DNA from: Bolinopsis microptera
Taxonomy: Eukaryota; Ctenophora; Tentaculata; Lobata; Bolinopsidae
Reading direction: 5' to 3'
Assembly: GCF_026151205.1 (NCBI RefSeq)
Contig: NC_087079.1
Location: forward strand, 3,111,730-3,175,729
Length of the DNA stretch: 64,000 nt
The notes beneath the pieces were generated by a model. It was not told the DNA's origin, searched no databases, and worked only from the letters and a program-made list of their open reading frames with translations. Within the stretch, counting starts at the first letter, position 1; each line of letters starts with the position of its first letter. Below are positions 1 to 44,870 of this stretch, piece by piece. Both the position numbers and the translations under genes were made by a program.

Positions 1-3000
1 CTGAGAGCAGGTAGAGTGAAGGTTACACTAAAACAATATTCAACCTGAGAGCAGGTAGAGTGAAGGTTACACTAAAACAATATTCAACCTGAGAGCAGGT
101 AGAGTGAAGGTTACACTAAAACAATATTAAACCTGAGAGCAGGTAGAGTGAAGGTTACACTAAAACAATATTCAACCTGAGAGCAGGTAGAGTGAAGGTT
201 ACACTAAAACAACATTAAACCTGAGAGCAGGTAGAGTGAAGGTTACACTAAAACAATATTAAACCTGAGAGCAGGTAGAGTGAAGGTTACACTAAAACAA
301 TATTCAACCTGAGAGCAGGTAGAGTGAAGGTTACACTAAAACAATATTAAACCTGAGAGCAGGTAGAGTGAAGGTTACACTAAAACAATATTAAACCTGA
401 GAGCAGGTAGAGTGAAGGTTACACTAAAACAATATTAAACCTGAGAGCAGGTAGAGTGAAGGTTACACTAAAACAATATTAAACCTGAGAGCAGGTAGAG
501 TGAAGGTTACACTAAAACAATATTAAACCTGAGAGCAGGTAGAGTGAAGGTTACACTAAAACAATATTAAACCTGAGAGCAGGTAGAGTGAAGGTTACAC
601 TAAAACAATATTAAACCTGAGAGCAGGTAGAGTGAAGGTTACACTAAAACAATATTAAACCTGAGAGCAGGTAGAGTGAAGGTTACACTAAAACAATATT
701 AAACCTGAGAGCAGGTAGAGTGAAGGTTACACTAAAACAATATTAAACCTGAGAGCAGGTAGAGTGAAGGTTACACTAAACAATATTAAACCTGAGAGCA
801 GGTAGAGTGAAGGTTACACTAAAACAATATTAAACCTGAGAGCAGGTAGAGTGAAGGTTACACTAAAACAATATTAAACCTGAGAGCAGGTAGAGTGAAG
901 GTTACACTAAAACAATATTAAACCTGAGAGCAGGTAGAGTGAAGGTTACACTAAAACAATATTCAACCTGAGAGCAGGTAGAGTGAAGGTTACACTAAAA
1001 CAATATTCAACCTGAGAGCAGGTAGAGTGAAGGTTACACTAAAACAATATTAAACCTGAGAGCAGGTAGAGTGAAGGTTACACTAAAACAATATTAAACC
1101 TGAGAGCAGGTAGAGTGAAGGTTACACTAAAACAATATTCAACCTGAGAGCAGGTAGAGTGAAGGTTACACTAAAACAATATTAAACCTGAGAGCAGGTA
1201 GAGTGAAGGTTACACTAAAACAATATTCAACCTGAGAGCAGGTAGAGTGAAGGTTACACTAAAACAATATTAAACCTGAGAGCAGGTAGAGTGAAGGTTA
1301 CACTAAAACAATATTAAACCTGAGAGCAGGTAGAGTGAAGGTTACACTAAAACAATATTAAACCTGAGAGCAGGTAGAGTGAAGGTTACACTAAAACAAT
1401 ATTAAACCTGAGAGCAGGTAGAGTGAAGGTTACACTACAACAATATTAAACCTGAGAGCAGGTAGAGTGAAGGTTACACTAAAACAATATTCAACCTGAG
1501 AGCAGGTAGAGTGAAGGTTACACTACAACAATATTCAACCTGAGAGCAGGTAGAGTGAAGGTTACACTAAAACAATATTCAACCTGAGAGCAGGTAGAGT
1601 GAAGGTTACACTAAAACAATATTAAACCTGAGAGCAGGTAGAGTGAAGGTTACACTACAACAATATTAAACCTGAGAGCAGGTAGAGTGAAGGTTACACT
1701 AAAACAATATTAAACCTGAGAGCAGGTAGAGTGAAGGTTACACTAAAACAATATTAAACCTGAGAGCAGGTAGAGTGAAGGTTACACTAAAACAATATTC
1801 AACCTGAGAGCAGGTAGAGTGAAGGTTACACTAAAACAATATTCTACCTGAGAGCAGGTAGAGTGAAGGTTACACTAAAACAATATTAAACCTGAGAGCA
1901 GGTAGAGTGAAGGTTACACTACAACAATATTCAACCTGAGAGCAGGTTGAGTGAAGGTTACACTAAAACAATATTCAACCTGAGAGCAGGTAGAGTGAAG
2001 GTTACACTAAAACAATATTAAACCTGAGAGCAGGTAGAGTGAAGGTTACACTACAACAACATTAAACCTGAGAGCAGGTAGAGTGAAGGTTACACTAAAA
2101 CAATATTCTACCTGAGAGCAGGTAGAGTGAAGGTTACACTAAAACAATATTCTACCTGAGAGCAGGTAGAGTGAAGGTTACACTACAACAATATTAAACC
2201 TGAGAGCAGGTAGAGTGAAGGTTACACTAAAACAATATTCTACCTGAGAGCAGGTAGAGTGAAGGTTACACTACAACAATATTCAACCTGAGAGCAGGTA
2301 GAGTGAAGGTTACACTAAAACAATATTAAACCTGAGAGCAGGTAGAGTGAAGGTTACACTAAAACAATATTCAACCTGAGAGCAGGTAGAGTGAAGGTTA
2401 CACTACAACAATATTAAACCTGAGAGCAGGTAGAGTGAAGGTTACACTAAAACAATATTCAACCTGAGAGCAGGTAGAGTGAAGGTTACACTACAACAAT
2501 ATTAAACCTGAGAGCAGGTAGAGTGAAGGTTACACTAAAACAATATTCAACCTGAGAGCAGGTAGAGTGAAGGTTACACTAAAACAATATTAAACCTGAG
2601 AGCAGGTAGAGTGAAGGTTACACTAAAACAATATTAAACCTGAGAGCAGGTAGAGTGAAGGTTACACTAAAACAATATTAAACCTGAGAGCAGGTAGAGT
2701 GAAGGTTACACTAAAACAATATTAAACCTGAGAGCAGGTAGAGTGAAGGTTACACTAAAACAATATTAAACCTGAGAGCAGGTAGAGTGAAGGTTACACT
2801 AAAACAATATTAAACCTGAGAGCAGGTAGAGTGAAGGTTACACTAAAACAATATTAAACCTGAGAGCAGGTAGAGTGAAGGTTACACTAAAACAATATTA
2901 AACCTGAGAGCAGGTAGAGTGAAGGTTACACTAAAACAATATTAAACCTGAGAGCAGGTAGAGTGAAGGTTACACTAAAACAATATTAAACCTGAGAGCA

Positions 3001-6000
3001 GGTAGAGTGAAGGTTACACTAAAACAATATTCAACCTGAGAGCAGGTAGAGTGAAGGTTACACTAAAACAATATTAAACCTGAGAGCAGGTAGAGTGAAG
3101 GTTACACTAAAACAATATTAAACCTGAGAGCAGGTAGAGTGAAGGTTACACTAAAACAATATTAAACCTGAGAGCAGGTAGAGTGAAGGTTACACTAAAA
3201 CAATATTAAACCTGAGAGCAGGTAGAGTGAAGGTTACACTAAAACAATATTAAACCTGAGAGCAGGTAGAGTGAAGGTTACACTAAAACAATATTCAACC
3301 TGAGAGCAGGTAGAGTGAAGGTTACACTACAACAATATTCAACCTGAGAGCAGGTAGAGTGAAGGTTACACTAAAACAATATTCAACCTGAGAGCAGGTA
3401 GAGTGAAGGTTACACTAAAACAATATTCAACCTGAGAGCAGGTAGAGTGAAGGTTACACTAAAACAATATTCAACCTGAGAGCAGGTAGAGTGAAGGTTA
3501 CACTACAACAATATTAAACCTGAGAGCAGGTAGAGTGAAGGTTACACTAAAACAATATTCAACCTGAGAGCAGGTAGAGTGAAGGTTACACTAAAACAAT
3601 ATTAAACCTGAGAGCAGGTAGAGTGAAGGTTACACTAAAACAATATTCAACCTGAGAGCAGGTAGAGTGAAGGTTACACTAAAACAATATTAAACCTGAG
3701 AGCAGGTAGAGTGAAGGTTACACTAAAACAATATTCAACCTGAGAGCAGGTAGAGTGAAGGTTACACTAAAACAATATTCAACCTGAGAGCAGGTAGAGT
3801 GAAGGTTACACTAAAACAATATTCAACCTGAGAGCAGGTAGAGTGAAGGTTACACTAAAACAATATTCAACCTGAGAGCAGGTAGAGTGAAGGTTACACT
3901 AAAACAATATTCAACCTGAGAGCAGGTAGAGTGAAGGTTACACTAAAACAATATTCAACCTGAGAGCAGGTAGAGTGAAGGTTACACTAAAACAATATTA
4001 AACCTGAGAGCAGGTAGAGTGAAGGTTACACTACAACAATATTCAACCTGAGAGCAGGTAGAGTGAAGGTTACACTAAAACAATATTCAACCTGAGAGCA
4101 GGTAGAGTGAAGGTTACACTAAAACAATATTAAACCTGAGAGCAGGTAGAGTGAAGGTTACACTAAAACAATATTAAACCTGAGAGCAGGTAGAGTGAAG
4201 GTTACACTAAAACAATATTAAACCTGAGAGCAGGTAGAGTGAAGGTTACACTAAAACAATATTCAACCTGAGAGCAGGTAGAGTGAAGGTTACACTAAAA
4301 CAATATTAAACCTGAGAGCAGGTAGAGTGAAGGTTACACTAAAACAATATTAAACCTGAGAGCAGGTAGAGTGAAGGTTACACTAAAACAATATTAAACC
4401 TGAGAGCAGGTAGAGTGAAGGTTACACTAAAACAATATTCAACCTGAGAGCAGGTAGAGTGAAGGTTACACTAAAACAATATTCAACCTGAGAGCAGGTA
4501 GAGTGAAGGTTACACTAAAACAATATTCAACCTGAGAGCAGGTAGAGTGAAGGTTACACTAAAACAATATTCAACCTGAGAGCAGGTAGAGTGAAGGTTA
4601 CACTAAAACAATATTCAACCTGAGAGCAGGTAGAGTGAAGGTTACACTAAAACAATATTCAACCTGAGAGCAGGTAGAGTGAAGGTTACACTAAAACAAT
4701 ATTCAACCTGAGAGCAGGTAGAGTGAAGGTTACACTAAAACAATATTAAACCTGAGAGCAGGTAGAGTGAAGGTTACACTAAAACAATATTAAACCTGAG
4801 AGCAGGTAGAGTGAAGGTTACACTAAAACAATATTCAACCTGAGAGCAGGTAGAGTGAAGGTTACACTAAAACAATATTAAACCTGAGAGCAGGTAGAGT
4901 GAAGGTTACACTAAAACAATATTAAACCTGAGAGCAGGTAGAGTGAAGGTTACACTAAAACAATATTCAACCTGAGAGCAGGTAGAGTGAAGGTTACACT
5001 AAAACAATATTCAACCTGAGAGCAGGTAGAGTGAAGGTTACACTAAAACAATATTCAACCTGAGAGCAGGTAGAGTGAAGGTTACACTAAAACAATATTC
5101 AACCTGAGAGCAGGTAGAGTGAAGGTTACACTAAAACAATATTCAACCTGAGAGCAGGTAGAGTGAAGGTTACACTAAAACAATATTCAACCTGAGAGCA
5201 GGTAGAGTGAAGGTTACACTAAAACAATATTCAACCTGAGAGCAGGTAGAGTGAAGGTTACACTAAAACAATATTCAACCTGAGAGCAGGTAGAGTGAAG
5301 GTTACACTAAAACAATATTCAACCTGAGAGCAGGTAGAGTGAAGGTTACACTAAAACAATATTCAACCTGAGAGCAGGTAGAGTGAAGGTTACACTAAAA
5401 CAATATTCAACCTGAGAGCAGGTAGAGTGAAGGTTACACTAAAACAATATTCAACCTGAGAGCAGGTAGAGTGAAGGTTACACTAAAACAATATTAAACC
5501 TGAGAGCAGGTAGAGTGAAGGTTACACTAAAACAATATTAAACCTGAGAGCAGGTAGAGTGAAGGTTACACTAAAACAATATTAAACCTGAGAGCAGGTA
5601 GAGTGAAGGTTACACTAAAACAATATTAAACCTGAGAGCAGGTAGAGTGAAGGTTACACTAAAACAATATTAAACCTGAGAGCAGGTAGAGTGAAGGTTA
5701 CACTAAAACAATATTAAACCTGAGAGCAGGTAGAGTGAAGGTTACACTAAAACAATATTAAACCTGAGAGCAGGTAGAGTGAAGGTTACACTAAAACAAT
5801 ATTAAACCTGAGAGCAGGTAGAGTGAAGGTTACACTAAAACAATATTAAACCTGAGAGCAGGTAGAGTGAAGGTTACACTAAAACAATATTAAACCTGAG
5901 AGCAGGTAGAGTGAAGGTTACACTAAAACAATATTAAACCTGAGAGCAGGTAGAGTGAAGGTTACACTAAAACAATATTAAACCTGAGAGCAGGTAGAGT

Positions 6001-10383: not shown

Positions 10384-10925
10384 CTGAGAACAGGTAGAGT
10401 GAAGGTTACACAAGCAGTCCTGGTCACAGTTAGGCCCAGTGTAACCTAGATCACACTCACACAGGTTGTACTCGCTACACTTGCCGTGTTTGCAGGTGGA
10501 ACTCGTGTCACACCTGCGGTGGTAACAGTTTTATCGAGCCATGTATTTACAATTGAAATAGGGTCATTATATCGGGCATTGTTTTTAGAAGTGTCACTGA
10601 TAATAACTTGGGTATTTTACCCCTTTTACAAATTAATATTTGCTTGATTTTCGCTGAACTTGACAAACAGTGTTTAGTTGTACCACAAGTCACTAAAAAT
10701 CTCAAACTAACTAACTTCAACCGACAATCTCCTCCCAACTCACTTGGACTCACAGACCCCATCGTGGTCCTGATAACCCAGTTTACACTGACAAGTAAAC
10801 CCGTCCTCTGTATCTATACACTCGGCGTTGTCATGGCAGTGGTGGAGTCCCAGGGCACACTCGTTAACTGCTGGACACTCCTGGTAGTACCAGCTCAGCG
10901 AGCAGTAACCCTCCTCAAAGTTACC
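10384..10925 (-). CDS. MEGF8: MEGF8 exons 25-26: calcium-binding EGF and laminin-type EGF
   Basis: Exon 25 finishes the last PSI (GNFEEGYCSLSWYYQEC) and encodes a calcium-binding EGF starting VNECALGLHHC with DTEDGFTCQC, the usual D/N-x-E-C and aromatic-residue pattern. Its donor splits the AAG codon (phase 2), joining CESK to CDTSSTC in exon 26. Exon 26 encodes CKHGKC and CECDLGYTGPNC and ends in CNLHSTCSQ, the start of a laminin-type EGF. The next exon must lie left of position 1, beyond at least 10.4 kb of satellite. Confidence 0.87.
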
Positions 10926-13900
10926 CTGACAGAGCATGTTAGTGTGCTTCTAGATTCAAAGTTACCCTGACAGAGCATGTTAGTGTGCTTCTAGATTCAA
11001 AGTTACCCTGACAGAGCATGTTAGTGTGCTTCTAGATTCAAAGTTACCCTGACAGAGCATGTTAGTGTGCTTCTAGATTCAAAGTTACCCTGACAGAGCA
11101 TGTTAGTGTGCTTCTAGATTCAAAGTTACCCTGACAGAGCATGTTAGTGTGCTTCTAGATTCAAAGTTACCCTGACAGAGCATGTTAGTGTGCTTCTAGA
11201 TTCAAAGTTACCCTGACAGAGCATGTTAGTGTGCTTCTAGATTCAAAGTTACCCTGACAGAGCATGTTAGTGTGCTTCTAGATTCAAAGTTACCCTGACA
11301 GAGCATGTTAGTGTGCTTCTAGATTCAAAGTTACCCTGACAGAGCATGTTAGTGTGCTTCTAGATTCAAAGTTACCCCGACAGAGCATGTTAGTGTGCTT
11401 CTAGATTCAAAGTTACCCTGACAGAGCATGTTAGTGTGCTTCTAGATTCAAAGTTACCCTGACAGAGCATGTTAGTGTGCTTCTAGATTCAAAGTTACCC
11501 TGACAGAGCATGTTAGTGTGCTTCTAGATTCAAAGTTACCCTGACAGAGCATGTTAGTGTGCTTCTAGATTCAAAGTTACCCTGACAAATCATGTTAGTG
11601 TGCTTCTAGATTCAAAGTTACCCTGACAGAGCATGTTAGTGTGCTTCTAGATTCAAAGTTACCCTGACAGAGCATGTTAGTGTGCTTCTAGATTCAAAGT
11701 TACCCTGACAGAGCATGTTAGTGTGCTTCTAGATTCAAAGTTACCCTGACAGAGCATGTTAGTGTGCTTCTAGATTCAAAGTTACCCTGACAGAGCAGGT
11801 TAGTGTGCTTCTAGATTCAAAGTTACCCTGACAGAGCATGTTAGTGTGCTTCTAGATTCAAAGTTACCCTGACAGAGCATGTTAGTGTGCTTCTAGATTC
11901 AAAGTTACCCAGACAGAGCATGTTAGTGTGCTTCTAGATTCAAAGTTACCCTGACAGAGCATGTTAGTGTGCTTCTAGATTCAAAGTTACCCTGACAGAG
12001 CAGGTTAGTGTGCTTCTAGATTCAAAGTTACCCTGACAGAGCATGTTAGTGTGCTTCTAGATTCAAAGTTACCCTGACAGAGCATGTTAGTGTGCTTCTA
12101 GATTCAAAGTTACCCTGACAGAGCATGTTAGTGTGATTCTAGATTCAAAGTTACCCTGACACAGCATGTTAGTGTGCTTCTAGATTCAAAGTTACCCTGA
12201 CACAGCATGTTAGTGTGCTTCTAGATTCAAAGTTACCCTGACAGAGCATGTTAGTGTGCTTCTAGATTCAAAGTTACCCTGACAGAGCATGTTAGTGTGC
12301 TTCTAGATTCAAAGTTACCCTGACAGAGCATGTTAGTGTGCTTCTAGATTCAAAGTTACCCCGACAGAGCATGTTAGTGTGCTTCTAGATTCAAAGTTAC
12401 CCTGACAGAGCATGTTAGTGTGCTTCTAGATTCAAAGTTACCCTGACAGAGCATGTTAGTGTGCTTCTAGATTCAAAGTTACCCTGACAGAGCATGTTAG
12501 TGTGCTTCTAGATTCAAAGTTACCCTGACACAGCATGTTAGACGTTAGTGTGCTTCTAGATTCAAAGTTACCCTGACAGAGCATGCTAGTGTGCTTCTAG
12601 ATTCAAAGTTACCCTGACAGAGCATGTTAGTGTGCTTCTAGATTCCCTGACAGAGCATGTTAGTGTGCTTCTAGATTCAAAGTTACCCTGACAGAGCATG
12701 TTAGTGTGCTTCTAGATTCAAAGTTACCCTGACAGAGCATGTTAGTGTGCTTCTAGATTCAAAGTTACCCTGACAGAGCAGGTTAGTGTGCTTCTAGATT
12801 GTATCTTAGAGGTGGTAAATTTGGGTAGACAACACAGAATTGAAAGACGGATAAGCTTGTAAACATTCCTCCTGAACAAATACCTGGGTGAGGTTGAGAC
12901 TGCAGAGTGACTGCAGACCTACCTTAATACAAGTACCGGAGTGACGTGAGGTTGAGACTCCAGACCTACCTTAATACAAATACCTGGGTGAGGTTGAGAC
13001 TCCAGACCTACCTTAATACAAGTACCGGAGTGAGGTTGAGACTCCAGTCCGCACCACCCACACCCGCGCACACTCTGACACTCTCTGCACGTGCGGTACA
13101 TCTCGCACTCGTCACAGTGGGACGATCCACCCCTGAAACAAGTTCCGTGAGATTTAATATTAATTGATAAAATCCCTATTTTATTATACTAGATTCGTCT
13201 TTATTTCGTCTTTATTTCTGAAGCAGACTGATATGGTAGATAAGCTTCCAAAAATCCAAAACTAATAATAATTAATCAATACCCAAATATTAACATATTA
13301 TCTACATTAATTCACAAGATATTGTGTTAAAGCACACAAAAGGACTCAGACTCACGGGGTAACAAATCCGTTGTACCACACGGAGCACTCCCCAAACGGG
13401 TAGAGAGCCACCTGTACGTTTATGGAGAAACACCGTCCCAGCGCCTTGCACCAAACACAGTCGTCCAGCCTGGGGTCACGTGATTATTTAGAGTCACGTG
13501 ATTAGTAAGGGTCACGTGGTTTGTTAGGGTCGCGTGATTAGTTCAAATAATTTAGATATTTGGTGGGTAGAGATTTTATGACACAACTCTAATATACTAT
13601 TATATTGCCAGGCAAACCTTCCGGTTTTTAAAAAGATAGAGATTAATGTTGGTATTGAAACATAATTAAACTGCTATAATCACTGATTAGTACCGAAATA
13701 ACTTTATAACTAGGAATCACTAAGTTACTAAATGTGTCAGGAAAATGAACTGACTCAGTGCAGGAGTAGCAGGAAGACTGTCGAGAGCAGGTATCCGGGC
13801 AGCGGTATCTCGATCTGATCGCTTCCTCGTATCTCCCACGTCTGTGGCATCTGAAGTTAAGCCACTCACAGTTACCGTCCTGAGGGAGGGGTAGTGTCTT

Positions 13901-15567
13901 ATCTGGCAAAACTGTGGTTAATTAAAACTGTGGTTAACTAAAACTGTGGTTAACTAAAACTGTGGTGAATTAAAACTGCGAATAACTAAAACTGCAGTTA
14001 AATAAAACTGTGGTAAACTAAAACTATGGTTAACTAAAACTGTGGTTAACTAATTACTAAAACTGTGATTAACTAAAACTGTGGTTTAAAAACTGTGGTA
14101 AACTAAAACTGTGGTTAACTAAAACTGCAGTTAAATAAAACTGTGGCAAACTAAAACTTTGGTTAATTAAAACTGTGGTTAACTAAAACTGTGGTTAACT
14201 AAAACTGTGGTTAAATAAAACTGTGGTTAACTAAAACTGTGGTTAACTAAAACTGCAGTTAAATGAAACTGTGGTAAACTAAAACTGTGGTTAGTTAAAA
14301 CTGTGGTAAACTAAAACTCACTCCAGCACAAGCAGAACAAGTGATACGTTCGTCACACTTGGTACAGGAATCAAAGTCAGTTATCAGGTACCCTGCTCTG
14401 AACTTCTGATTGGTGGAGAAGGTGTGCACTGATCTTAGCTGGCATCTGGGAGGAAGGAGGGTGTTACATGCCACATACCAAAGCTTTCGACTAGTGGGTT
14501 TATAGTATATTATGTACGGATACTTCTAGTTAGAGTAACCAGGGCCAGGGTTTGAGAATTATACCGTATACGTCGAAGTGTCACTAACCGTGCTAAAGAA
14601 GAGTGATGACGTCACTAACCATGATATAGAAGAAAGATGACGTCACTAACCGTGATAAAGAAGAGTGATGACGTCACTAACCGTGATATAGAAGAGTGAT
14701 GACGTCACTAACCGTGATATAGAAGAAAGATGACGTCACTAACCGTGATAAAGAAATAAGAAGAGTGATGACGTCACTAACCGTGATATAGAAGAGTGAT
14801 GACGTCACTAACCGTGATATAGAAGAAAGATGACGTCACTAACCGTGATAAAGAAGAGTGATGACGTCACTAACCGTGATAAAGAAGAGTGATGACGTCA
14901 CTAACCGTGATATAGAAGAGTGATGACGTCACTAACCGTGATAAAGAAGAGTGATGACGTCACTAACCGTGATATAGAAGAGTGATGACGTCACTAACCG
15001 TGATATAGAAGAGTGATGACGTCACTAACCGTAATATAGAAGAGTGATGACGTCACTAACCGTGATATAGAAGAGTTCCAGCCACACAGTTGATCAGTAA
15101 GACACCCCAGACAGGTTCCAAAGTGAGTACAGGAACCGTTCCTGTAGGGCACTAACACGTCCTGATAATGTATACCGTTACTGTGAGATACCTTCAGTTT
15201 TACTGTCATTTAGAGATGGCCACTAGAATTGAACAATAAGAGAGTAAAATCACATCCAGTAAACGAGGTAACGGGGGAAAACAAAGGGTTATCTTGTTAT
15301 TCTGTCCATCACGCAATGACGTTATAAACCGACGGATAACGTCACGTGACCTCCTTATGACGTCACGTGACCTCCTAATGACGTCACATGACAGTGTACC
15401 TCGTTGAGTATCTCCTCGGAGTGGTAGTCAGATCCCCCACCGTCCCACATGATCGTCATGTTACTCCTCTGTTGCTGATCATTAATGTACTGACTTAACA
15501 CTGCTTTTATGTATACCTGGTGTGAAACAATATTACCATTGTAAGAAGGAGGGGGCGGGGCGGCGAA

Positions 15568-15605
<38 letters not shown>

Positions 15606-18600
15606 GACATAACATTCCTTATGATATTAATCATCTTATTTTCATCATTACATCCCCCCATCATTAATCTGCAGTTTGATTTCAATAGACCATTTTACAT
15701 ACATAACTTTATCATAATACGACCAAACTATTCACTAAAACGACTTGACAAATATAAAGAAATAATAATAAAAGAAATTTTAATCTTAAATATGTAGAAA
15801 GAATAAAAAAGCGACTCGACAATCTTCTCGACAATAATGTCACTAAAAATTCACTAAAAAAGTTCTCACAATTTTGTATCTAGGCAGCGAGTAACGGTTC
15901 TCCTTTTGTATCTTCCGGCTGGCATTCCTGAACACTAACTCTGCGTCACGTGACGTCCTGCCCACGTGCAGATCAACTAAGCCGTCCGTGTACTGGACTC
16001 GTAGATTGTACTGCGGAATTTGGGGGAGGGATAGTTATTAGGCCAATAATTAAATACTTGAACAAACTGTTTGTTTTAATTGTCACATAGGTTTATTGAA
16101 ATATCGTGACAAAAAGTGGCAAAATGTACTACAAGAACTCAAGAACTGTGCGAAGAAAATATCAATGCAGTGATCATAGTTCAAATAATTGACAATCATA
16201 TTCTAGACTAAAAGTGTAAACTGAAGGTTAAAACACTAAAAACCCATTCTACGCAACTAAACTCCAGAGAGATCTCCTCTCTGTGGGGTGGTCACACAAT
16301 GTGATGGCTTTGTTAAGTTGTTAAAGCTTAACAAATCTCAACATAGGTGACATAGGTGGATAAACTGTAAGATATTAGATAAACCTTGTTGGAATATTCC
16401 CTGTGCGTGCTGTTGATGTAGCCCCGGAGGTGTCCGTAGTATCTCTTATCTTCCCCCGTATCTCTTGTATGTGTCTGGTATTGTGAAATAATGGTCACGT
16501 GATCTAATTACTTACTCTCAAATTGGGTCTTATTTAAAAGCCTGAATATCAACCTTAAATCAGCACGTCCTCGCTTATTTTCTTTGTCGCACTCACGCAG
16601 TAGCAATCTCAAACTATTATCAACTTTAAATATTATTGAACTTAGGGAAAAGTAACCAATGTTAAAGATCATTACATGTTTGGAGTAGAGCAGGTCGACA
16701 CGTGCTGACTTGACAATAGACACGTGATCAGGGAGGTCCCAGTTAACCGGGTCCACTACTTTCACCCAGTGTAGTCCTGGAGGCATATCGTCTGTCTGGG
16801 AGGATCTTAATTAGTCAGTTAATTACTAATTAGTCAATAAGGTGATTAGATAATTGGTCAGTAATTAAACCGGGGTTCAGGGGACAGTGTTTACCTGGCA
16901 CTGTATAGGTGAAGTTAGCAGGGTTCCCTCAGGACCCCACCATGGTTCTGGAGATTGTACTCCACAATAGTCGCCACTGTTCCGGGATCTACAGTTTCCG
17001 TCTTGTACACACCTGTTATTATTAGAAAGTGAATATAAATAAAATCTAAAATAAATAATATTAAGGTTTTAATAATTGACGGTCGGAGGGAAAGAAAACG
17101 CAAAGATATCAAATTTAATCCAAATAATGACATAGATAAGGTGACCTTTGGAAAATCTAATTAGTCGCTGCCCCCGCTAATTGTTGCATCATTGACTCTT
17201 ATAGACGCCAACTCCTCACCAGTATAAACAAATAAACAAAATATAAGTATCCTAATAAATCCTGTACGCCGTGATGATATGATAGATTTTAGGAAGTATT
17301 GTGTGATATTAATACCAGTTAGTTATATTTCTACGTAATGGAAGTGGAAAACCGAGTTCCGGTCGGCGGGTCCGATAGGGCGGGTCAGACAGCACCTGGG
17401 GGAGTGACAAATGCACCACCTCAGAGGGAACAGCTGTGAAACACTGGAGCTAGAATTAAGGGCTGTCAAACACAATGATGCTAAATTAACATAATATAAT
17501 GATGATAGATTAACACAGCGTGATAGAGAGGAACAATAACTAGTCAACGGAGTGCGAAGGTAGCAGGTGAGAGGTCTAAAACAACGGACAGGACATTATT
17601 TATAGCTGGGAGCTGGAGCTGGGCAAAGAGAGTTTCTAGTTTGTTCTATCGAAGGACGGTTGGTGGCGGACGACTAAGGAACCTGTTACTCTGGTTGAGT
17701 TCTGGTTGGCCTGGAGAGTTGTCGATAGTTGACATAATGTTATTGGTCACGGCACATTTAAGTTAGGAGTTTCAGCGGGACATAATGCAGGTGTAACTGT
17801 AATTGTAGACAAGCATTGACGGAGTTTCAGCGGGACATAATGCAGGTGTAACTGTAACTGTAGACAAGCATTGACGGCACATTTAAGTTAGGAGTTTCAG
17901 CGGGACATAATGCAGGTGTAACTGTAATTGTAGACAAGCATTGACGGAGTTTCAGCGGGACATAATGCAGGTGTAACTGTAACTGTAGACAAGCATTGAC
18001 GGCACATTTAAGTTAGGAGTTTCAGCGGGACATAATGCAGGTGTAACTGTAATTGTAGACAAGCATTGACGGAGTTTCAGCGGGACATAATGCAGGTGTA
18101 ACTGTAACTGTAGACAAGCATTGACGGCACATTTAAGTTAGGAGTTTCAGCGGGACATGATGCAGGTGTAACTGTAATTGTAGACAAGCATTGACGGAGT
18201 TTCAGCGGGACATGATGCAGGTGTAACTGTAATTGTAGACAAGCATTGACGGCACATTTAAGTTAGGAGTTTCAGCGGGACATGATGCAGGTGTAACTGT
18301 AATTGTAGACAAGCATTGACGGAGTTTCAGCGGGACATGATGCAGGTGTAACTGTAATTGTAGACAAGCATTGACATTTAAATTAGGAGTTTCAGCGGGA
18401 CATGATGCAGGTGTAATTGTAGACAAGCATTGACGGCCGACTTTATTATAGTGTGTCTGAATAAAGTAGGTTTGTACTGATTGTATTTCATATAATAATG
18501 TTAGTTATATCGTCTTAGAACACGTTTATTAATTGTTAGGCCCTGAACGTCAGTGTCTAATAATCGCCACTGTTGGTATCAATTAAGCAGGAATACCCAC

Positions 18601-21600
18601 TGCTAACAAGCCACGTACCACTCACAACCAGCTAGTGCACACTCGGTGCACCTTGTTAGTCTGTAGCACACACTGCACTGGTTCATCTGCTGACGGCATC
18701 TCTTGACTGGTCGGCACTTCTTGCCGCACCGTACGCAGTGCTGTAACGCGTTACACTCGTCATATGCGGCACTGCTTACTTCACCTCCCTGTAGGTAGTA
18801 ATGCGTCAACAATTATAGAATTATACGGTAGCTGTGTTGTGAACTTTACTATAAAATTAAAATGTCTTAAATGAAACTGTTAATTACATCGCATTTAATC
18901 TCATCAGTTCGTCGGACGTAGGACAGATAAATCAAAAATCCTACGTCATAATAGTGCCCAATTAATAGCCGAATAAAGGCAGAATCTAATGGAATTGTAA
19001 CATTCACGTCAGAACGAACCACTGTTTTAAAGTTTTAACACACCTTTTTATCCTTGTTCGGAATGGAAGAGCAATCCTCCCTGGGCGGATAATATAACAG
19101 CACATCGTTCATGGGCTGTCCGTTAAACCCCCCTACAACAACCATACTGTCTCTGTATCTAGCTGCCGCGTGCGCGTATCTCAAGCTGGCTGTCACGTGG
19201 CTCTCGTCTTTGGGGAGCGGGGACACCCAGTCCATGCAACCCAGGTCGAAAACTATAGTGTCCGGGTTAAAACACTGCTCGACATTCTGGTTTTCTTTGT
19301 TGCCACCTGACAAAGGGAAGTTTAGGTTAGAGTTAACGAAATAAATAACGATACAATTAATGAAACAACAATGTCCTCTCGGTGCAATCCATTTGTCAAG
19401 GTTGGTTAAATATTTATTTGGAAATTGGATTATGGATGGAATTAGTACGATGATTTTGGTCCATCGTTTAGAGAAATAGTAAACAGAGTTAGAATTAACC
19501 AGATTCTTAGTTGTCACATTGACTTACCGAATACAACCATAAATCTGCCCAGTTTGACTGCTGTGTGAAAAACAATACCAGGAATTTGGGTAGTGATTTT
19601 AAGCTTCGACCATACCTGCAAGGGGTAATACAGTTATTAATATATCAAGCTATAATCAACAAATGTATTAGAACTTGAAGAAGTTATTTCCAATTTGCTA
19701 TGCCAATTGGTTAAAACACTGTTCCACAGTAGGCTTTACTTTGGGTAAATTGGCAACTGTTATTTTTTTATTTTTTTATTATATCAGGGCATTATCGACA
19801 AATTACACCCGAAGATATTGTTTAAACTACCTAGGAAGGGAGCACCCAATTTTTTCCTCAAAATTAATTTAATCTTTAAAAAAATGAGAACTGCTAATCG
19901 GTAATACGTAAAGCTACTAATCATTGTTCCTGTCACAACCCGTGAATCCATGATAGAGGCTGTAACAATGCAGTCTGAAGCTCCACGATGGTCCGTGCAC
20001 CCTGCTTATCTCCCCATAAACCCTGTAAACCGTCCCAACTAACAAGCTATTCACTAGAACATCCCCTGTCTGTGAAGCTCTCTGCATCCAGAAAGCAGCT
20101 ACTCTTCCTTATATGGGCATCACGTGGCTACGCTTGCCCTACTGCTCCTTGTATCGGGGGTTGTCTGGACACAAGAACCCTTACCAGGCTGATAATAACA
20201 TGCGGGCAGATGTAGACAGGGCTGTTGTCTGGAGATATAGGTAGTATGTCTTCAGTCACACTTGTCAGAACCGCCCCTCAGGAGCTTATTTAATATCAGC
20301 ATCAGACCAAAGGTCAGATCAGTGCTCAGTGGTTTGTTTTTCGAGAGCTCCATTGAGGTATGGAGCCGTTAGTTTTATTTCTCAGTTCTTCTATATGGAC
20401 TGAGTGCGTGGAACTTTTTTGTCTAAAATTTGGAGGTTATTTTCTTTTCGGACACATTTAAATTATATTAGATCAAGGCGAACTAAATAGTTGTTAGGGC
20501 CACGCTTTTTTAACTCGTACGTTTTTATCTGTAGATCTGTGTAGTATTTGTTTAATAAGTTCATGAAAACTTTTGTTATCTATTTCGTTACACGATGTAA
20601 CATTTAAACGGAAGTAGTTTTTTCTCAAGCCCATTGAGAGTCATATTTACTGTCTAAGCGCAGTAACAATAGGTTTTTGAATAATAATATAAGAATTTGT
20701 TTATTCCACGCCAGCAATCATTCGTCGATAATGCCCATTTTACAAGCTTATATAAGTCACCTTGTTCTTTATACTGAAGAGTAAAACATCCGAACTCTTG
20801 TCGTAGCGTACATGAGGTATTGGAACAAAACCTGTGTGAGAAACAAGGTTAGTACTTTAGTAGTAGTGTGAGAAACAGTGTTAGTACTTTAGTAGTATCC
20901 AGCATATCCACCTGTTTGAGAGGGTTAGTACTTTAGTAGTATTCAGCATATCCATATTCCATATCCGGCCCCAATTGTAATGATATCATGGTCCCACCGC
21001 TGTGTTCCGGGTTATCCGACATAAAGTTTACAAATGTTAGCATTGATCATATGCTCTAACAAAATATAAGCTCACCTCCGAACACGACAATACTTCCTGA
21101 GTCCTCATCATACACAGCAGAGTGACCGTACCGTCTTATCTCAGAACACTTGTAGATAGTGGGGGTCACCAGACCCCATACAGGACTCCGGGAGGATAGG
21201 TCCATGGTGTGAAGTGAGCAGGAATAGTGGTCCGTGTCTCCGCCAGTAAGACCTGTCAAGTGATTAGATTATTATATATTAGCTGATTAGTAATAAATAG
21301 GAGATCGTAAATTTATCGGTAAATTTAAAAAACATACTGAATATTTTGGATTACCGCCCCAAAAAATTTAACAAAGAATGTTAATTGTAACCCGCCCTAT
21401 GATGAATGTAACCCGCCCTATGATGAATGTACTACGGCAGACTTTTCTAAAAATACATTTCGTTATCCGTATATTTGATTACAATTAAACGACTAAAAAC
21501 CTTATGAGACCCGAGAACACTTTTCAGGTGGTCAAAATGAATATTATTCAAGTAATAAAAACAAATTTAAAAATGTTATATGGGTCAATCAATAATATTA

Positions 21601-24600
21601 TCATGTGATTATGACTGATTTCAACACATGATAATATTTCAAAAACGTAATTATTAATAAACAATTAATAAGATCGTAGAAAATACTCAAACCAAATTAT
21701 AAATTATTTAATAGTAATCTTAAACCAGGATCATGTTTTTGCAACTCCTATCAGCCCTGCTAGCCCTCCATTGCACCATCCCCACTATATCGGCTTCAGA
21801 GGGATCCTCAGCAAAGGCACTGCAGTTCGGTACCACCTTTGGTGACTACGTAAAGTTTTTCCCTGATATGAGCCAGGTCAAAGACTCCCTAACGGTGTGT
21901 TCATGGGTAAAGAAACAGCTGACTGGCCCCTACAGATCCTGGTTTAGCTACAAAACGTCCACACACGAGATCCTAATATCAGATGCTGGTTACTACAACT
22001 ACATTCACAACAGCGGCAATTACCAGTCAAGTGCTATTACTGTAACAGTACCTCTTGATACGTGGAGTCATCAATGTCAAAGCTGGTCAACAAGCACTGG
22101 GACAATGAAGACATACTATAATGGTACTCTCATAGGGTCTAAAAGTATTTCCTCAGCTCCATTAAAAGAGGGGGTGTCATTACTCTGGGACACAATGCTG
22201 CAGCGTAGAACAAGTAGAAGTATTCGGTGGGCAGCTGATGAAACTAGATATCTTCGGAAAAGTGCTCAGTTCAGAAGAAATTGCAGATATATACAACGCT
22301 GGGAGATGTTCCGATGTAGAAAAGAAGCACCAGGAAGTCAGGTTCATCACCTGGGAGAGCATCCTGAGTCAGGACAAAACTGGTAATGTCACAGAAGTGG
22401 ACTCTGGGTGTCCTGCTGAAGAAGAAGAGGAGGAAGAAGAGGAAGAAAAAGAAGTTTGAGTGTCACAGTATTTGGGACATACTCTATGATCAGACCTACT
22501 TCAACCAAACACTCGCCGCCGAGAAACTGACCGAGCTAAATGCTAACTGGAACATGTTGGGTAAGTAGATAATTACCATGAGTAGGTTAAGTTCATGTCT
22601 TATTATTTTTAGAGATTTTCCTTCGTTCTGGTTAGACTACGACTGGATACTGGTGCAGGGGAGGTTAGCCGTATTTGTTGTGACACGTGATAAAGAGTCT
22701 TGTTTGATTGGCCAATTATACTGGAAGCTGACTGGTTAATTACTGGCACGTGTCATAGTAAATAGAGTTCAAATCCGGTCTTCCTGACCGTGTCTAGATA
22801 TATTGAACGCGAACAATTTTTCTTGTACCCTAGAAATAAACTAATAATAAGTTTACTTGCAGATTATTTCGTCGGCACACCGATCACGGAGAATATCATA
22901 GCTTATTTTAAGGCTTACCATCCTATGCCGGCAGAGAAAGATGACAGCAGCTAGAGGAAAGAAATCAAGGGGAAGATTAACTCATCGGTACGTTGATTTT
23001 AATAACAGCACAATAACTTATTATTAACTAGGTTTGCTGATTAGACATTTTAAGATTATTAATTACTATCAATATTATTGGTTATCCCTCCGTCTCCGGC
23101 CGGTAAAATGTATGATATTACTAATCAACTTCTCTTCAGGTCCTACTACAAAGTACACTGTTCTCCTTACAGCTGCTTGGTTACTAATTTGGAGACGAGG
23201 ATCTAATTTTTCTGATACGTATCATGGGATTAGTCTGATGTCAGAGCTTTTGTTGCCTTAATGTTGCCTTAATGTTGCCTTAATGTTGTCTTAATGTTGT
23301 CTTATCGTTTGTTGTCTTATTGGTGTTTGTTGCGTTAACGTTGGCTTAATGTTGTCTTATTGTTGTCTTAATATTGTCTTATTGTTGTCTTAATGTTGTC
23401 TTAATGTCCCATCGGTGATTGTTCAAGTGGCCGAGCTTTTTGAACCCATTTCCATTATAACAGTAACCCGTTTTAGAACATTCTTAATAATTATCATTAG
23501 AATAGTTATACTGACCCTATATTTTTGAACAATAATTTTACTATCAATTATTGGCATTTTGATGTCAGGAATTTGTTTTACCAACCGATTGTCATTGCAG
23601 TAACTAATTTTAGAACATTTTGAACATCAATTTATTGACCCCTATAATACTATTCAGTTGAGTGCCATTTTAGAACATTTTTGATACGTAATTATTTTAA
23701 TAATGACTCTTATTTGATTTAGAGCTAATTTTAGCTAATACTAGTATCTACTATCAACGTATCATAAATATAAAATAAAGATACGTTTTTAAAAATTTGA
23801 ATCTTAGTCTTACATTTAAAGTATGGTTAGTGAATTTATTTACGATCTATTTACGATAATAATTATTTACGATAATTTATTACGATAATAATATGTTATA
23901 GGGAACTTAGAGATTTTTCAACATGAATGCTTTCATCAATTGTGATTTGAAACGATTTAAATTTTATTCGAAATCGTATCTTTTATTGGTTCAAATATAT
24001 AACTGGGTTAAATGGGGGTCAGAAATGAGATTGGTGGCAGATAATTCAACTTTATCTCGGAAAAAAATATTTGTGCGGCCAACACTAGCTTCCAGCATTA
24101 TATTTGGAAATAATGTAATATTATGTGTTCTACAAGGGAAGGTGTCCCAAAAAGTGATCAGTTTTAATAACTCGGAAACAGTTATGAAATAATTATGACA
24201 GGGTTACGACATGCAGTCGAATCCCTATGCCACAACCAAAAACCAAATCGTATTTACATATTTAACAACCATGCCATAACTGTGTCACAACATGGTTATG
24301 AAATGGTTAAATAAAGTTTACCCAGCCAAGAGGGAGACATCTTCAACATTTGAATTTAAAAGTTTAAATGTTATTATTGAATGGAAAAAATACTACAATT
24401 CTGTTGGATTTGTCCAAATAAATGCTAAGATTACTTTTACTTCTTTTCTCTTGAACAGACAGGAATTAAGTGACACGATATTGTGAGAACAAAACGTTAA
24501 TATAACCCTAACCATAATAACGTAATTGACAATAATCTTTGATGAATCCCCCTCCCCCTTTTTCAACAACGCCCAAAAGGCAAAAACTTCAAGACCCCCC

Positions 24601-27600
24601 TGCCCCACAGCAATTTTGAACAAACCTCCGAAAAGGTAAACGTTGCCAGCTGGCACCACAGTGGTTGTGTGCCCGGTAACCGGTACTGGAAGAGACGGGT
24701 ACTGGTACCAGCACGAGTCTGACGTGTTGTACAGCCAACAGTCGCCTCCGATAGTCGTTGTGCTCTGATGTATAATTGTAGACAATTTTTTCGATTATTT
24801 TTCTTAATTATATCTAGCCATAAATAATAATGGAGACCGTGTACACTGCACAGCATAATTTTGTTTAAAAATCTGACTGTAATAAAAATGTGCGCTATTT
24901 CAGTATTGCTTAGACAATTCGAATAATTCACCTTGAAGAATCCGCCACAATACAGGATACTATCACCAAACACCGCAGAACTGTGCATATAGCGTCCTGA
25001 GGTTAAAATAGTGTTATTTCGAATAAAATCAAGTTTCACGTCTTTTATTAAAACAACAAAGAATTTATCTTTTTTAAAAATAATAAGTGTACCAACTAGC
25101 GGGGTACACTTAGTTTTCTTGTTGAGAAGTTTTCTTGTTGCTTTTAAAAAATAGTCACAAAATAATCTTGTTTTACTGTAATATCATAGTGCAACAGTAA
25201 TGTAAAAGTAGTGCAACAGTAATGTAAAAGTAGTGCAACAGTAATGTAAAAGTAGTGCAACAGTAATGTAAAAGTAGTGCAACAGTAATGTAAAAGTAGT
25301 GCAACAGTAATGTAAAAGTAGTGCAACAGTAATGTAAAAGTAGTGCAACAGTAATGTAAAAGTAGCGCAACAGTAATGTAAAAGTAGTGCAACAGTAATG
25401 TAAAAGTAGCGCAACAGTAATGTAAAAGTAGCGCAACAGTAATGTAAAAGTAGTGCAACAGTAATGTAAAAGTAGCGCAACAGTAATGTAAAAGTAGTGC
25501 AACAGTAATGTAAAAGTAGTGCAACAGTAATGTAAAAGTAGTGCAACAGTAATGTAAAAGTAGCGCAACAGTAATGTAAAAGTAGTGCAACAGTAATGTA
25601 AAAGAAGTGCAACAGTAATGTAAAAGTAGCGCAACAGTAATGTAAAAGTAGTGCAACAGTAATGTAAAAGTAGCGCAACAGTAATGTAAAAGTAGCGCAA
25701 CAGTAATGTAAAAGTAGCGCAACAGTAATGTAAAAGTAGTGCAACAGTAATGTAAAAGTAGCGCAACAGTAATGTAAAAGTAGTGCAACAGTAATGTAAA
25801 AGTAGTGCAACAGTAATGTAAAAGTAGTGCAACAGTAATGTAAAAGTAGTGCAACAGTAATGTAAAAGTAGCGCAACAGTAATGTAAAAGTAGTGCAACA
25901 GTAATGTAAAAGTAGTGCAACAGTAATGTAAAAGTAGCGCAACAGTAATGTAAAAGTAGTGCAACAGTAATGTAAAAGTAGCGCAACAGTAATGTAAAAG
26001 TAGTGCAACAGTAATGTAAAAGTAGTGCAACAGTAATGTAAAAGTAGTGCAACAGTAATGTAAAAGTAGCGCAACAGTAATGTAAAAGTAGTGCAACAGT
26101 AATGTAAAAGTAGCGCAACAGTAATGTAAAAGTAGTGCAACAGTAATGTAAAAGTAGTGCAACAGTAATGTAAAAGTAGCGCAACAGTAATGTAAAAGTA
26201 GTGCAACAGTAATGTAAAAGTAGCGCAACAGTAATGTAAAAGTAGTGCAACAGTAATGTAAAAGTAGTGCAACAGTAATGTAAAAGTAGTGCAACAGTAA
26301 TGTAAAAGTAGCGCAACAGTAATGTAAAAGTAGCGCAACAGTAATGTAAAAGTAGTGCAACAGTAATGTAAAAGTAGTGCAACAGTAATGTAAAAGTAGT
26401 GCAACAGTAATGTAAAAGTAGTGCAACAGTAATGTAAAAGTAGTGCAACAGTAATGTAAAAGTAGTGCAACAGTAATGTAAAAGTAGTGCAACAGTAATG
26501 TAAAAGTAGCGCAACAGTAATGTAAAAGTAGTGCAACAGTAATGTAAAAGTAGCGCAACAGTAATGTAAAAGTAGTGCAACAGTAATGTAAAAGTAGTGC
26601 AACAGTAATGTAAAAGTAGTGCAACAGTAATGTAAAAGTAGCGCAACAGTAATGTAAAAGTAGTGCAACAGTAATGTAAAAGTAGTGCAACAGTAATGTA
26701 AAAGTAGCGCAACAGTAATGTAAAAGTAGTGCAACAGTAATGTAAAAGTAGCGCAACAGTAATGTAAAAGTAGTGCAACAGTAATGTAAAAGTAGTGCAA
26801 CAGTAATGTAAAAGTAGCGCAACAGTAATGTAAAAGTAGCGCAACAGTAATGTAAAAGTAGTGCAACAGTAATGTAAAAGTAGTGCAACAGTAATGTAAA
26901 AGTAGTGCAACAGTAATGTAAAAGTAGCGCAACAGTAATGTAAAAGTAGTGCAACAGTAATGTAAAAGTAGCGCAACAGTAATGTAAAAGTAGTGCAACA
27001 GTAATGTAAAAGTAGTGCAACAGTAATGTAAAGTAGTGCAACAGTAATGTAAAAGTAGCGCAACAGTAATGTAAAAGTAGTGCAACAGTAATGTAAAAGT
27101 AGCGCAACAGTAATGTAAAAGTAGTGCAACAGTAATGTAAAAGTAGTGCAACAGTAATGTAAAAGTAGTGCAACAGTAATGTAAAAGTAGTGCAACAGTA
27201 ATGTAAAAGTAGTGCAACAGTAATGTAAAAGTAGTGCAACAGTAATGTAAAAGTAGCGCAACAGTAATGTAAAAGTAGTGCAACAGTAATGTAAAAGTAG
27301 CGCAACAGTAATGTAAAAGTAGTGCAACAGTAATGTAAAAGTAGTGCAACAGTAATGTAAAAGTAGCGCAACAGTAATGTAAAAGTAGTGCAACAGTAAT
27401 GTAAAAGTAGCGCAACAGTAATGTAAAAGTAGTGCAACAGTAATGTAAAAGTAGTGCAACAGTAATGTAAAAGTAGTGCAACAGTAATGTAAAAGTAGCG
27501 CAACAGTAATGTAAAAGTAGCGCAACAGTAATGTAAAAGTAGTGCAACAGTAATGTAAAAGTAGTGCAACAGTAATGTAAAAGTAGCGCAACAGTAATGT

Positions 27601-30600
27601 AAAAGTAGTGCAACAGTAATGTAAAAGTAGCGCAACAGTAATGTAAAAGTAGTGCAACAGTAATGTAAAAGTAGTGCAACAGTAATGTAAAAGTAGCGCA
27701 ACAGTAATGTAAAAGTAGCGCAACAGTAATGTAAAAGTAGCGCAACAGTAATGTAAAAGTAGTGCAACAGTAATGTAAAAGTAGTGCAACAGTAATGTAA
27801 AAGTAGTGCAACAGTAATGTAAAAGTAGTGCAACAGTAATGTGAAAGTAGTGCAACAGTAATGTAAAAGTAGTGCAACAGTAATGTAAAAGTAGTGCAAC
27901 AGTAATGTAAAAGTAGTGCAACAGTAATGTAAAAGTAGTGCAACAGTAATGTGAAAGTAGTGCAACAGAAAACAGAAATGTAAAAGTAGTGCAACAGTAA
28001 TGTGAAAGTAGTGCAACAGTAATGTAAAAGTAGTGCAACAGTAATGTAAAAGTAGCGCAACAGTAATGTAAAAGTAGCGCAACAGTAATGTAAAAGTAGT
28101 GCAACAGTAATGTAAAAGTAGTGCAACAGTAATGTAAAAGTAGCGCAACAGTAATGTAAAAGTAGTGCAACAGTAATGTAAAAGTAGCGCAACAGTAATG
28201 TAAAAGTAGTGCAACAGTAATGTAAAAGTAGTGCAACAGTAATGTAAAAGTAGCGCAACAGTAATGTAAAAGTAGCGCAACAGTAATGTAAAAGTAGCGC
28301 AACAGTAATGTAAAAGTAGTGCAACAGTAATGTAAAAGTAGTGCAACAGTAATGTAAAAGTAGTGCAACAGTAATGTAAAAGTAGTGCAACAGTAATGTG
28401 AAAGTAGTGCAACAGTAATGTAAAAGTAGTGCAACAGTAATGTAAAAGTAGTGCAACAGTAATGTAAAAGTAGTGCAACAGTAATGTAAAAGTAGTGCAA
28501 CAGTAATGTGAAAGTAGTGCAACAGAAAACAGAAATGTAAAAGTAGTGCAACAGTAATGTGAAAGTAGTGCAACAGTAATGTAAAAGTAGTGCAACAGTA
28601 ATGTAAAAGTAGTGCAACAGTAATGTAAAAGTAGTGCAACAGTAATGTAAAATTAGTGCAACAGTAATGTAAAAGTAGCGCAACAGTAATGTAAAAGTAG
28701 TGCAACAGTAATGTAAAAGTAGCGCAACAGTAATGTAAAAGTAGTGCAACAGTAATGTAAAAGTAGCGCAACAGTAATGTAAAAGTAGCGCAACAGTAAT
28801 GTAAAAGTAGTGCAACAGTAATGTAAAAGTAGCGCAACAGTAATGTAAAAGTAGCGCAACAGTAATGTAAAAGTAGTGCAACAGTAATGTAAAAGTAGTG
28901 CAACAGTAATGTAAAAGTAGTGCAACAGTAATGTAAAAGTAGTGCAACAGTAATGTGAAAGTAGTGCAACAGTAATGTAAAAGTAGTGCAACAGTAATGT
29001 AAAAGTAGTGCAACAGTAATGTAAAAGTAGTGCAACAGTAATGTAAAAGTAGTGCAACAGTAATGTGAAAGTAGTGCAACAGAAAACAGAAATGTAAAAG
29101 TAGTGCAACAGTAATGTGAAAGTAGTGCAACAGTAATGTAAAAGTAGTGCAACAGTAATGTAAAAGTAGTGCAACAGTAATGTAAAAGTAGTGCAACAGT
29201 AATGTAAAATTAGTGCAACAGTAATGTAAAAGTAGCGCAACAGTAATGTAAAAGTAGTGCAACAGTAATGTAAAAGTAGCGCAACAGTAATGTAAAAGTA
29301 GTGCAACAGTAATGTAAAAGTAGTGCAACAGTAATGTAAAAGTAGTGCAACAGTAATGTAAAGTAGCGCAACAGTAATGTAAAAGTTGTGTTTAAGTGAA
29401 CACTTTGACTGGGGAGATAGTAATAGCATAATATGATTTATTGATAAAACATAATATTATAACTGTAATAAACACCTCCAGGAAGCGAGGAAGAGGCAGG
29501 ACTAATCGGGACATCAGACCAGTCACCGGACACCACGTGCAGTCTCTTGAAGCTGTACAGGACCAGGTTTAGATCGTACCCTCCAAAAACGTACAGGTAG
29601 TCTCCGATAACATCAGCCGTGTGACCTTGTCTTGGTAACATTCTCTGCAACAAGTTGTGATCTATTTATTGTGCTAAGGGACCGTTTGAATAAGCGAGAT
29701 TTTAACCTTTTGAGACCCTCACCTCCCCTTCCCTTGTCCGTAGGCCATTTTACACGTTATTAGGTGTAGAGATAACAAGCTTTTCCAAACCATCTCCACC
29801 CCTAGCTTACGTAATATGTGACCGATCACTCTGCCGTTTTCTGACAAAAGTGCTTAAATTTGAGGTTTTTAAACTCTTTTGTCAATTTCCCCACTAACGG
29901 TATAAATTTATAGAATGAAATTTTTCAAGGAATTAAACTAAACACAAAACATTCATGAGACACAGACAATAATTCTCAGTAAAACAATCTAATATACAGT
30001 AGAATAAATCCAAAGTAATTGCAAAAGCGCAGAGATTTAATGAAATAAAACCAACCTTGGCTTGATCCCAGCTGAGGATAGACTGTCTACTCTCTGGCTG
30101 TACTAAACTAAACCAACTATTGTAAGGGGGCTCCTCAGCTTTAGAGATCAACTTGATGTTGCACTTCCAGCCAAAATATCCTTCATTACACCTGTACAGA
30201 TAGAAACATCATCATATTGAAATTTGAATTAGCAGAATAATGACCATACAAATATTCGAGTCCTATACTTGGAAAAGAGAGGACTCATGAAAATCAATCA
30301 GTCAAAAGGTAGTAATAAAATTTATAGAACACTTTCGGATTTCTGATTATAAAATTGAATGTTTGACAAGAGGTACCTTACAAGACATATTTATGTGGAT
30401 CATAATTAGCGGGGATCGAAATTATGGGGGAACGAAAATATGGGGATTTTTTACAGAAATTCAGTAATTCAGTACGAAATTTCAGAAATTCAGTACGAAA
30501 ATATGGGGATTTTTTCCCATTTTTTCCAAAAATCCCCGAATTTCGTACCATATAAATATGTTTCGTAAGGTATACCCAATAACGAATCCTTGGTCCAACA

Positions 30601-44597: not shown

Positions 44598-44870
44598 GTA
44601 AGTCCACGAATTGATAACATTTTAACAATCTTATCTGGAGTTTGCAAGAAATGAAATTCAGAGGTATGTACTATCTTTTTATTATGATTTACAAACGGAC
44701 ACAATAATATTATAATATCACTATCCGCTGTTAGGGGAGTAGGGGGTGCAACGTATTCTTACCAGTAGGTAACAGTGTCATCTTGTAAATAAAGTAAACT
44801 GTCGCTCTTATTGAAATCCGGGAAATCCCTGTACTCGTCTACAAAAGTTACTTTACATGAGTGACTTACC

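Follow-up and report, generated by a model that had tools for sequence, protein, structure and literature searches.

Tandem arrays built from exon-intron junctions in a ctenophore genome, a probable outcome of untargeted duplication filtered by splicing

Why should several exon borders of one gene carry tandem repeats whose unit is a copy of the border itself? The question arises from a window of 64,000 nucleotides (C8:3111730-3175729; GC content 32-46%) in the genome assembly of the ctenophore Bolinopsis microptera. A sequence-only reading of this window had noted such repeats at several junctions of a single gene and had proposed a process that duplicates DNA at exon-intron borders or, alternatively, selection against the spread of repeats into exons. 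The assembly totals 264.65 Mb in 232 contigs, 13 of which appear chromosome-sized (15.2-26.2 Mb for twelve of them; matches on C10 reach 12.9 Mb). A search of it for the nuclear-receptor DNA-binding domain, which ctenophores are not known to have, gave no match, a negative that falls short of demonstrating absence; a COX1 search was likewise negative. According to the available text of PMC10232365, this species has n = 13, and its genome size as estimated from k-mers is about 254 Mbp.

The gene lies on the minus strand, and 40 of its exons were placed, with the start of exon 20 and the end of exon 39 left unset. Exons 1-19 and 21-31 maintain an open frame across their splices; beyond exon 31 the joins are not in open frame, and the exon edges there therefore rest on local reading. 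Pfam searches identified CUB, an attractin-type kelch propeller, PSI and laminin/attractin EGF domains, together with a second kelch stretch, and this domain set fits a predicted protein of MEGF8 type; an NCBIfam search gave no match. The name MEGF8, taken from the sequence-only reading, is presumably the right one. Tandem arrays with a TRF score of 60 account for 22,077 of the 34,269 intron bases of the gene (64%).

Table 1. Exons and tandem arrays of the MEGF8-type gene within the window (positions are those of the window unless a contig is named).
Feature	Position	Strand	Basis
Exon 26, ends ...CLCNLHSTCSQ	10384..10513	-	Open frame across exons 25-27, laminin/attractin EGF match
Exon 25, begins GNFEEGYC	10744..10925	-	Frame and splice sites
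44-bp array, exon 26 donor	1..10411, continuing leftward past the window to C8:3108811	-	TRF, junction reading
41-bp array, exon 25 acceptor, 46 copies, 11 nt of exon	10915..12800	-	TRF
42-bp array, exon 24 donor, 3.2 copies, 36 nt of exon	12909..13047	-	TRF
18-bp array, 3.9 copies, stops 3 nt before exon 23, purely intronic	13473..13543	-	TRF
16-bp array, intron 21, 25.4 copies, starts at +3 and stops 28 nt short of the acceptor	13908..14318	-	TRF
31-bp array, exon 20 donor, 15.8 copies, 16 nt of exon	14580..15076	-	TRF
125-bp array within intron 14, far from both borders (comparison)	17749..18421	-	TRF
32-bp duplication, 2.0 copies, upstream of exon 11	20834..20897	-	TRF
22-bp array, 190 copies, within intron 7 (comparison)	25187..29390	-	TRF

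At five junctions of the gene the exon edge lies inside the tandem unit: the donors of exons 20, 24 and 26 and the acceptors of exons 25 and 34 (Table 1; the exon 34 array, left of the window, has a 46-bp unit in 8.9 copies and includes 16 nt of exon). The arrays at exons 20, 24, 25 and 26 had been described in the sequence-only reading as built from the junction, and in each of them the unit does contain exon sequence. The exon 26 donor array extends over 13.3 kb and comprises 303 copies that are 98% alike, with 236.6 copies inside the window. Its unit consists of 27 nt of exon and 17 nt of intron, and the array holds 28 nt of exon. The 301 clean 44-mers fall into 14 variants; the donor GT is invariant in 301 of 301, and 3 of 27 exonic positions vary as against 6 of 17 intronic ones. 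In this one assembly, 303 copies with so few variants looks like ongoing turnover. The exon 25 acceptor unit (42 clean 41-mers were compared) contains a branch-point-like CACTAAC, a pyrimidine tract and TCAG ahead of its exonic part.

Other arrays touch borders without copying them. Upstream of exon 11 there is a repeat at the border, as had been claimed, but it consists of the branch region and pyrimidine tract, stops 2 nt short of the exon and excludes both the terminal AG and any exon sequence; it is not confirmed as a junction copy. Intron 21 is nearly filled by an array, as described, although the unit is 16 rather than 17 bp and is without exon sequence. The array before exon 23, for which a weaker case had been made, is intronic only. 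The intron 7 array lies 85 and 190 nt from the intron borders and has a higher-order pattern, with one 29-bp variant every 557 bp (27942, 28499 and 29056). Among exons with both edges placed, the only array wholly inside an exon of the gene at a score of 40 is a 12-bp unit in 2.9 copies, encoding in-frame GAST repeats, in exon 31 (C8:3106707-3106741, left of the window).

Further features of the window were recorded in passing. A 278-bp unit is repeated 3.8 times at 50943-51988, each copy with its own donor and an entire coiled-coil-like exon, which by eye measures about 105 nt and less in the last copy; this array of whole exons adjoins a 14-bp array of 58 copies. An 8-bp array, TACCCCTC, is present in 119 copies at 44867-45817. 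On the plus strand within intron 9, at about 21730-22440, an apparent open frame with a signal-peptide-like start, noted by eye, is perhaps a nested gene.

The search was extended beyond the MEGF8-type gene to 84 loci of kinesin, myosin, CCT, dynein and HECT genes. Exons were located through conserved domains, and introns through splice-site scores trained on the MEGF8-type gene combined with the length of the domain model. Six family searches gave 409 exon matches, 353 of them within the loci analysed; single-exon matches were left out, as were some multi-exon clusters, including those of kinesins at C2:22.5 Mb and C11:11.3 Mb and of myosins on C11 and C13. A protein kinase search was excluded, as many of its matches covered the whole domain within one open frame; clusters of such matches in single open frames occur at C11:1438036-1805885 and, with a spacing of about 2.8 kb, at C5:14315027-14332439. 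Introns were accepted for 135 of 191 candidate exon pairs in a first set and 59 of 78 in a second, the other 56 and 19 pairs being dropped for lack of a clear intron; with 38 introns of the MEGF8-type gene this gave 232. Their median length is 233 nt, and 58 of the 232 contain a TRF array with a score of at least 60. Outside the MEGF8-type gene, arrays at score 60 occupy 13,864 of 104,278 intron bases (13%).

Within the accepted introns 11 arrays span a border, nine at donors and two at acceptors. When the 353 exon matches were searched without intron models, arrays were found to leave the exon match at 15 places (19 rows), of which 11 donors and two acceptors stood after reading. One apparent acceptor array (L055) proved to be intronic and was dropped, and one apparent donor array (L007) begins exactly at the donor, only abuts it and was not counted. 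The total is thus 18 junction-spanning arrays, 14 at donors and four at acceptors, five in the MEGF8-type gene and 13 in other genes, with units of 18-65 bp. They occur on seven of the 12 large contigs sampled (C1, C2, C5, C6, C8, C12 and C13; 15-26 Mb). The statement that one gene has junction-derived arrays at several of its borders is therefore borne out, and it extends to other genes; their presence in other gene families rules out a gene-specific cause. Spanning junctions were more frequent in the MEGF8-type gene (5/76) than elsewhere (6/388, accepted introns only; Fisher p = 0.021), in a comparison for which that gene had been picked because its arrays had been noticed. Two dynein heavy chain paralogues (L046, 1115-1883; L052, 3595-3705) have donor arrays at what appears to be the matching exon end, each including 53 nt of exon, and this is possibly a recurrent site.

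The two kinds of splice site are not equally affected. Donor-spanning arrays outnumber acceptor-spanning ones by 14 to 4 overall (p = 0.031) and by 11 to 2 outside the MEGF8-type gene (p = 0.022). Five arrays come to an end 0-3 nt short of an acceptor where 0.81 would be expected (P = 0.0015, by a test chosen post hoc), and in four of the five the terminal AG lies outside the unit; three arrays begin 0-3 nt after a donor. An apparent wall at acceptors (0/193 outside the MEGF8-type gene) had to be lowered to an asymmetry when acceptor arrays were found at loci L009 and L020.

Whether arrays span borders more often than uniform seeding would produce was examined with a model in which a unit may land at any place overlapping an intron and its chance of spanning a given border is (L-1)/(I+L-1), where L is the length of the unit and I the contracted length of the intron. 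In the first 173 introns, at score 60, nine donors and two acceptors were spanned among 60 arrays, against 4.17 expected per side (P = 0.18). At score 100, 11 of 30 arrays spanned a border against 5.6 expected (2.81 per side; P = 0.007), and among the 24 arrays at score 140 the excess had P = 0.003. Outside the MEGF8-type gene this first sample gave six donors, against 1.46 expected among 19 arrays at score 100 (P = 0.001) and 2.48 among 43 arrays at score 60 (P = 0.027), with no acceptor-spanning array in its accepted introns. In the 59 introns of the second sample none of 17 arrays spanned a border (1.26 expected per side), nor did any of the eight at score 100 (0.89 per side), in a pair test that could not use three donor arrays in outer exons of the same loci. 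Enrichment at borders thus appeared in the first sample and failed to recur in the second. Pooled outside the MEGF8-type gene, six donors compare with 2.35 expected at score 100 (Poisson P = 0.033) and 3.74 at score 60 (Poisson P = 0.18); for donors and acceptors together the comparison is 6 with 4.7 or 7.5, respectively. A relaxed filter applied to kinesin, HECT and DHC_N2 exons (115 of 147 pairs, 22 arrays) gave five donors and one acceptor against 2.01 per side. A modest donor excess may therefore be present; a consistent excess at borders as such is absent.

A second view was obtained by scoring 16-nt windows for a near copy (14/16) within 300 nt, in accepted introns only. Copies were found for 8 of 230 windows across donors, 12 of 208 at +60 and none of 228 at -60 in the exon, and on the acceptor side for 10 of 206 at -60 and 2 of 231 across the acceptor. 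Local repeats exceed chance, since reversed sequence gave 0 or 1 match at every position. Relative to windows 60 nt inside introns (26/361), acceptor windows were depleted (p = 0.0002), whereas donor windows showed no enrichment (p = 0.07, the difference being towards fewer copies). The direct comparison of donors with acceptors gave p = 0.062, and four other settings pointed the same way (0.056-0.17). This profile missed the acceptor arrays of L009 and L020, whose exon edges fall outside accepted introns, and it understates seeding at borders because repeat growth inflates the coverage of intron interiors.

On neither strand do as many as three of the 18 units have an 8-mer in common, so that no common sequence seeds the arrays. 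How much of the unit is exonic varies widely from array to array (KS p = 0.23 against uniform), from which it follows that breakpoints are not placed at the border. Unit length is divisible by 3 in only four of 18, and a retained extra copy would therefore usually shift the frame. In 10 of 11 scorable donor arrays an inner donor scores as high as the outer one (the exception is L052; L018, L046 and L085 could not be scored, owing to register); the inner sites must therefore be ignored because of their position and not their weakness. Two-copy arrays exceed two units by 1, 1, 0 and 4 nt (L019, L020, L052 and L080), which in this single assembly points to little homology at the breakpoints. In L052 and L080 the two copies are 100% identical, which suggests that these duplications are recent. 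No array wholly within an exon was found among the 353 exon matches at a score of 80.

The explanation that we consider probable is untargeted tandem duplication filtered by splicing. Short tandem duplications would start along genes regardless of exon borders, and through unequal exchange or a comparable form of turnover some would expand into hundreds of almost identical copies. Those within exons would mostly be lost because they alter the protein. Duplications straddling a 5' splice site would be harmless if the spliceosome picks the exon-proximal donor, which is transcribed first, so that later copies leave with the intron. Those straddling a 3' splice site would add upstream acceptors, transcribed first and presumably used, and most such events would be lost; arrays would then halt just short of the acceptor AG. 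First-come choice among splice sites is an existing idea, and a partial literature search found no direct test of it. Because the introns are short (median given above) and rich in tandem arrays, many random arrays would come to contain a border, and a border-directed process is unneeded. The alternative named in the sequence-only reading, selection against spread into exons, is accordingly the better fit among its two proposals, with splicing as the filter. Counted against untargeted seeding are the border excess of strong arrays in the first 173 introns and the donor excess outside the MEGF8-type gene. The existence of four acceptor-spanning arrays counts against a splicing filter; in two of them, at exon 25 and L009, the upstream acceptors score equal to the real one, and such arrays should have been lost unless recursive splicing or exon definition protects them.

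A process aimed at borders, in which the first duplications are made mainly at 5' splice sites by splicing-linked R-loops, pausing or break repair, seems unlikely to us. It would account for the first-sample excesses at score 100, both that at donors outside the MEGF8-type gene and that at donors and acceptors together, and for the matching donors of the dynein paralogues. However, the second sample has no strong array across a border, the pooled donor excess is modest and comes with no acceptors, donor windows are no richer than interior ones, and breakpoints are spread across the border; nor is the MEGF8-type gene unique. On these grounds the border-directed mechanism first proposed for this locus is not supported. 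It is more doubtful still that the arrays are kept for a purpose, as mini-exons, steps of recursive splicing or a means of regulating intron length. The 44-bp unit does contain TTTTAG, 27 nt (9 codons) and CAG/GT and could be an in-frame mini-exon, and a GT lies 0-3 nt past the acceptor AG in all four acceptor arrays, as it likewise follows closely after AG in recursive or dual-specific sites (available text of PMC10809524). Yet AG is followed directly by GT at 14 of 38 acceptors of the MEGF8-type gene anyway, units differ between genes, and few have a length divisible by 3.

About as improbable is the idea that some arrays mark recent introns, arisen by tandem duplication of exon sequence carrying AG and GT, a known mechanism of intron gain (PMC4974935 and PMC3087553, in the parts available). 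Intron 21 is almost all array, and the strong present donor of L052 is a GT joined to a copy of the exon, as this idea would predict; in six donor cases outside the MEGF8-type gene, though, the far end of the intron seems unique, as in an older intron. We give very little weight to errors of long-read assembly as the source of the copy numbers or of the arrays themselves: long arrays are hard to assemble, but many genes have arrays, each with its own unit, and the frame of the MEGF8-type gene is intact over the exons joined above. A role of the arrays as loop anchors was also considered and set aside; the main text of PMC12221973, in its available part, contains neither 'tandem' nor 'minisatellite'.

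Judged by their structure, the arrays are likely to be minisatellites of the kind called 'mirages' or 'exon stuttering' in other animals. In amphioxus, mirages have been described in the Adh3, TnC, globin and PGBD5 genes as minisatellite-like copies of 5' or 3' boundaries that reportedly leave normal splicing undisturbed; few genes and few copies are involved (6 and 3 in the BflGb6 haplotypes), with RT-PCR support (available portions of PMC3087553 and PMC3902484). The ctenophore arrays resemble them in that the tandem unit spans the exon-intron boundary and that both 5' and 3' boundaries are affected. They differ in reaching 303 copies, and normal splicing is here predicted from open frames across the junctions of the MEGF8-type gene. 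In chicken, introns with exon stuttering hold local tandem repeats, some derived from the exon edge plus the donor or acceptor; coding sequence is intact, in more than 90% of cases no more than 1 base separates the source from the exon border, and 190 of 236 such introns are on dot chromosomes, a concentration that the authors speculatively link to replication stress caused by high GC content or DNA structures; donors and acceptors are not counted separately (PMC12954441, as far as its text was available). Here too the intronic repeats derive from nearby sequence, in some cases the exon edge, but there is no concentration on dot chromosomes: they are spread over the large contigs listed above, and the window is AT-rich. 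The dot-chromosome pattern reads as a property of the chicken host, and we have not filed the arrays as stuttering.

Two other systems are related. Intron gain by tandem duplication shares the duplication across an intron-exon boundary, but there a new intron results, whereas here, as far as is visible, existing introns lengthen. Dual-specific sites in human UBC are similar in that tandem units with AG and GT can be removed by splicing; the UBC repeats, however, are coding ubiquitin monomers, included in variable number by splicing (PMC10809524, available text). A partial literature search found no published junction-spanning arrays in a ctenophore. A kind of repeat known from lancelets and one bird is extended to a likely non-bilaterian animal and to several gene families.

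This argues for seeing border-spanning repeats as a general consequence of the growth of repeats where introns are short. The asymmetry may be general as well: if whichever of several identical sites is transcribed first wins, junction duplications would pass freely through 5' splice sites and for the most part be held back at 3' splice sites; we put this forward tentatively. If true, the genome would hold many natural experiments, with up to 303 near-identical donors in an intron, in which splicing is decided by position alone. The arrays also supply test cases for the choice that a spliceosome makes between numerous equivalent sites, as well as raw material from which introns can lengthen and new ones arise.
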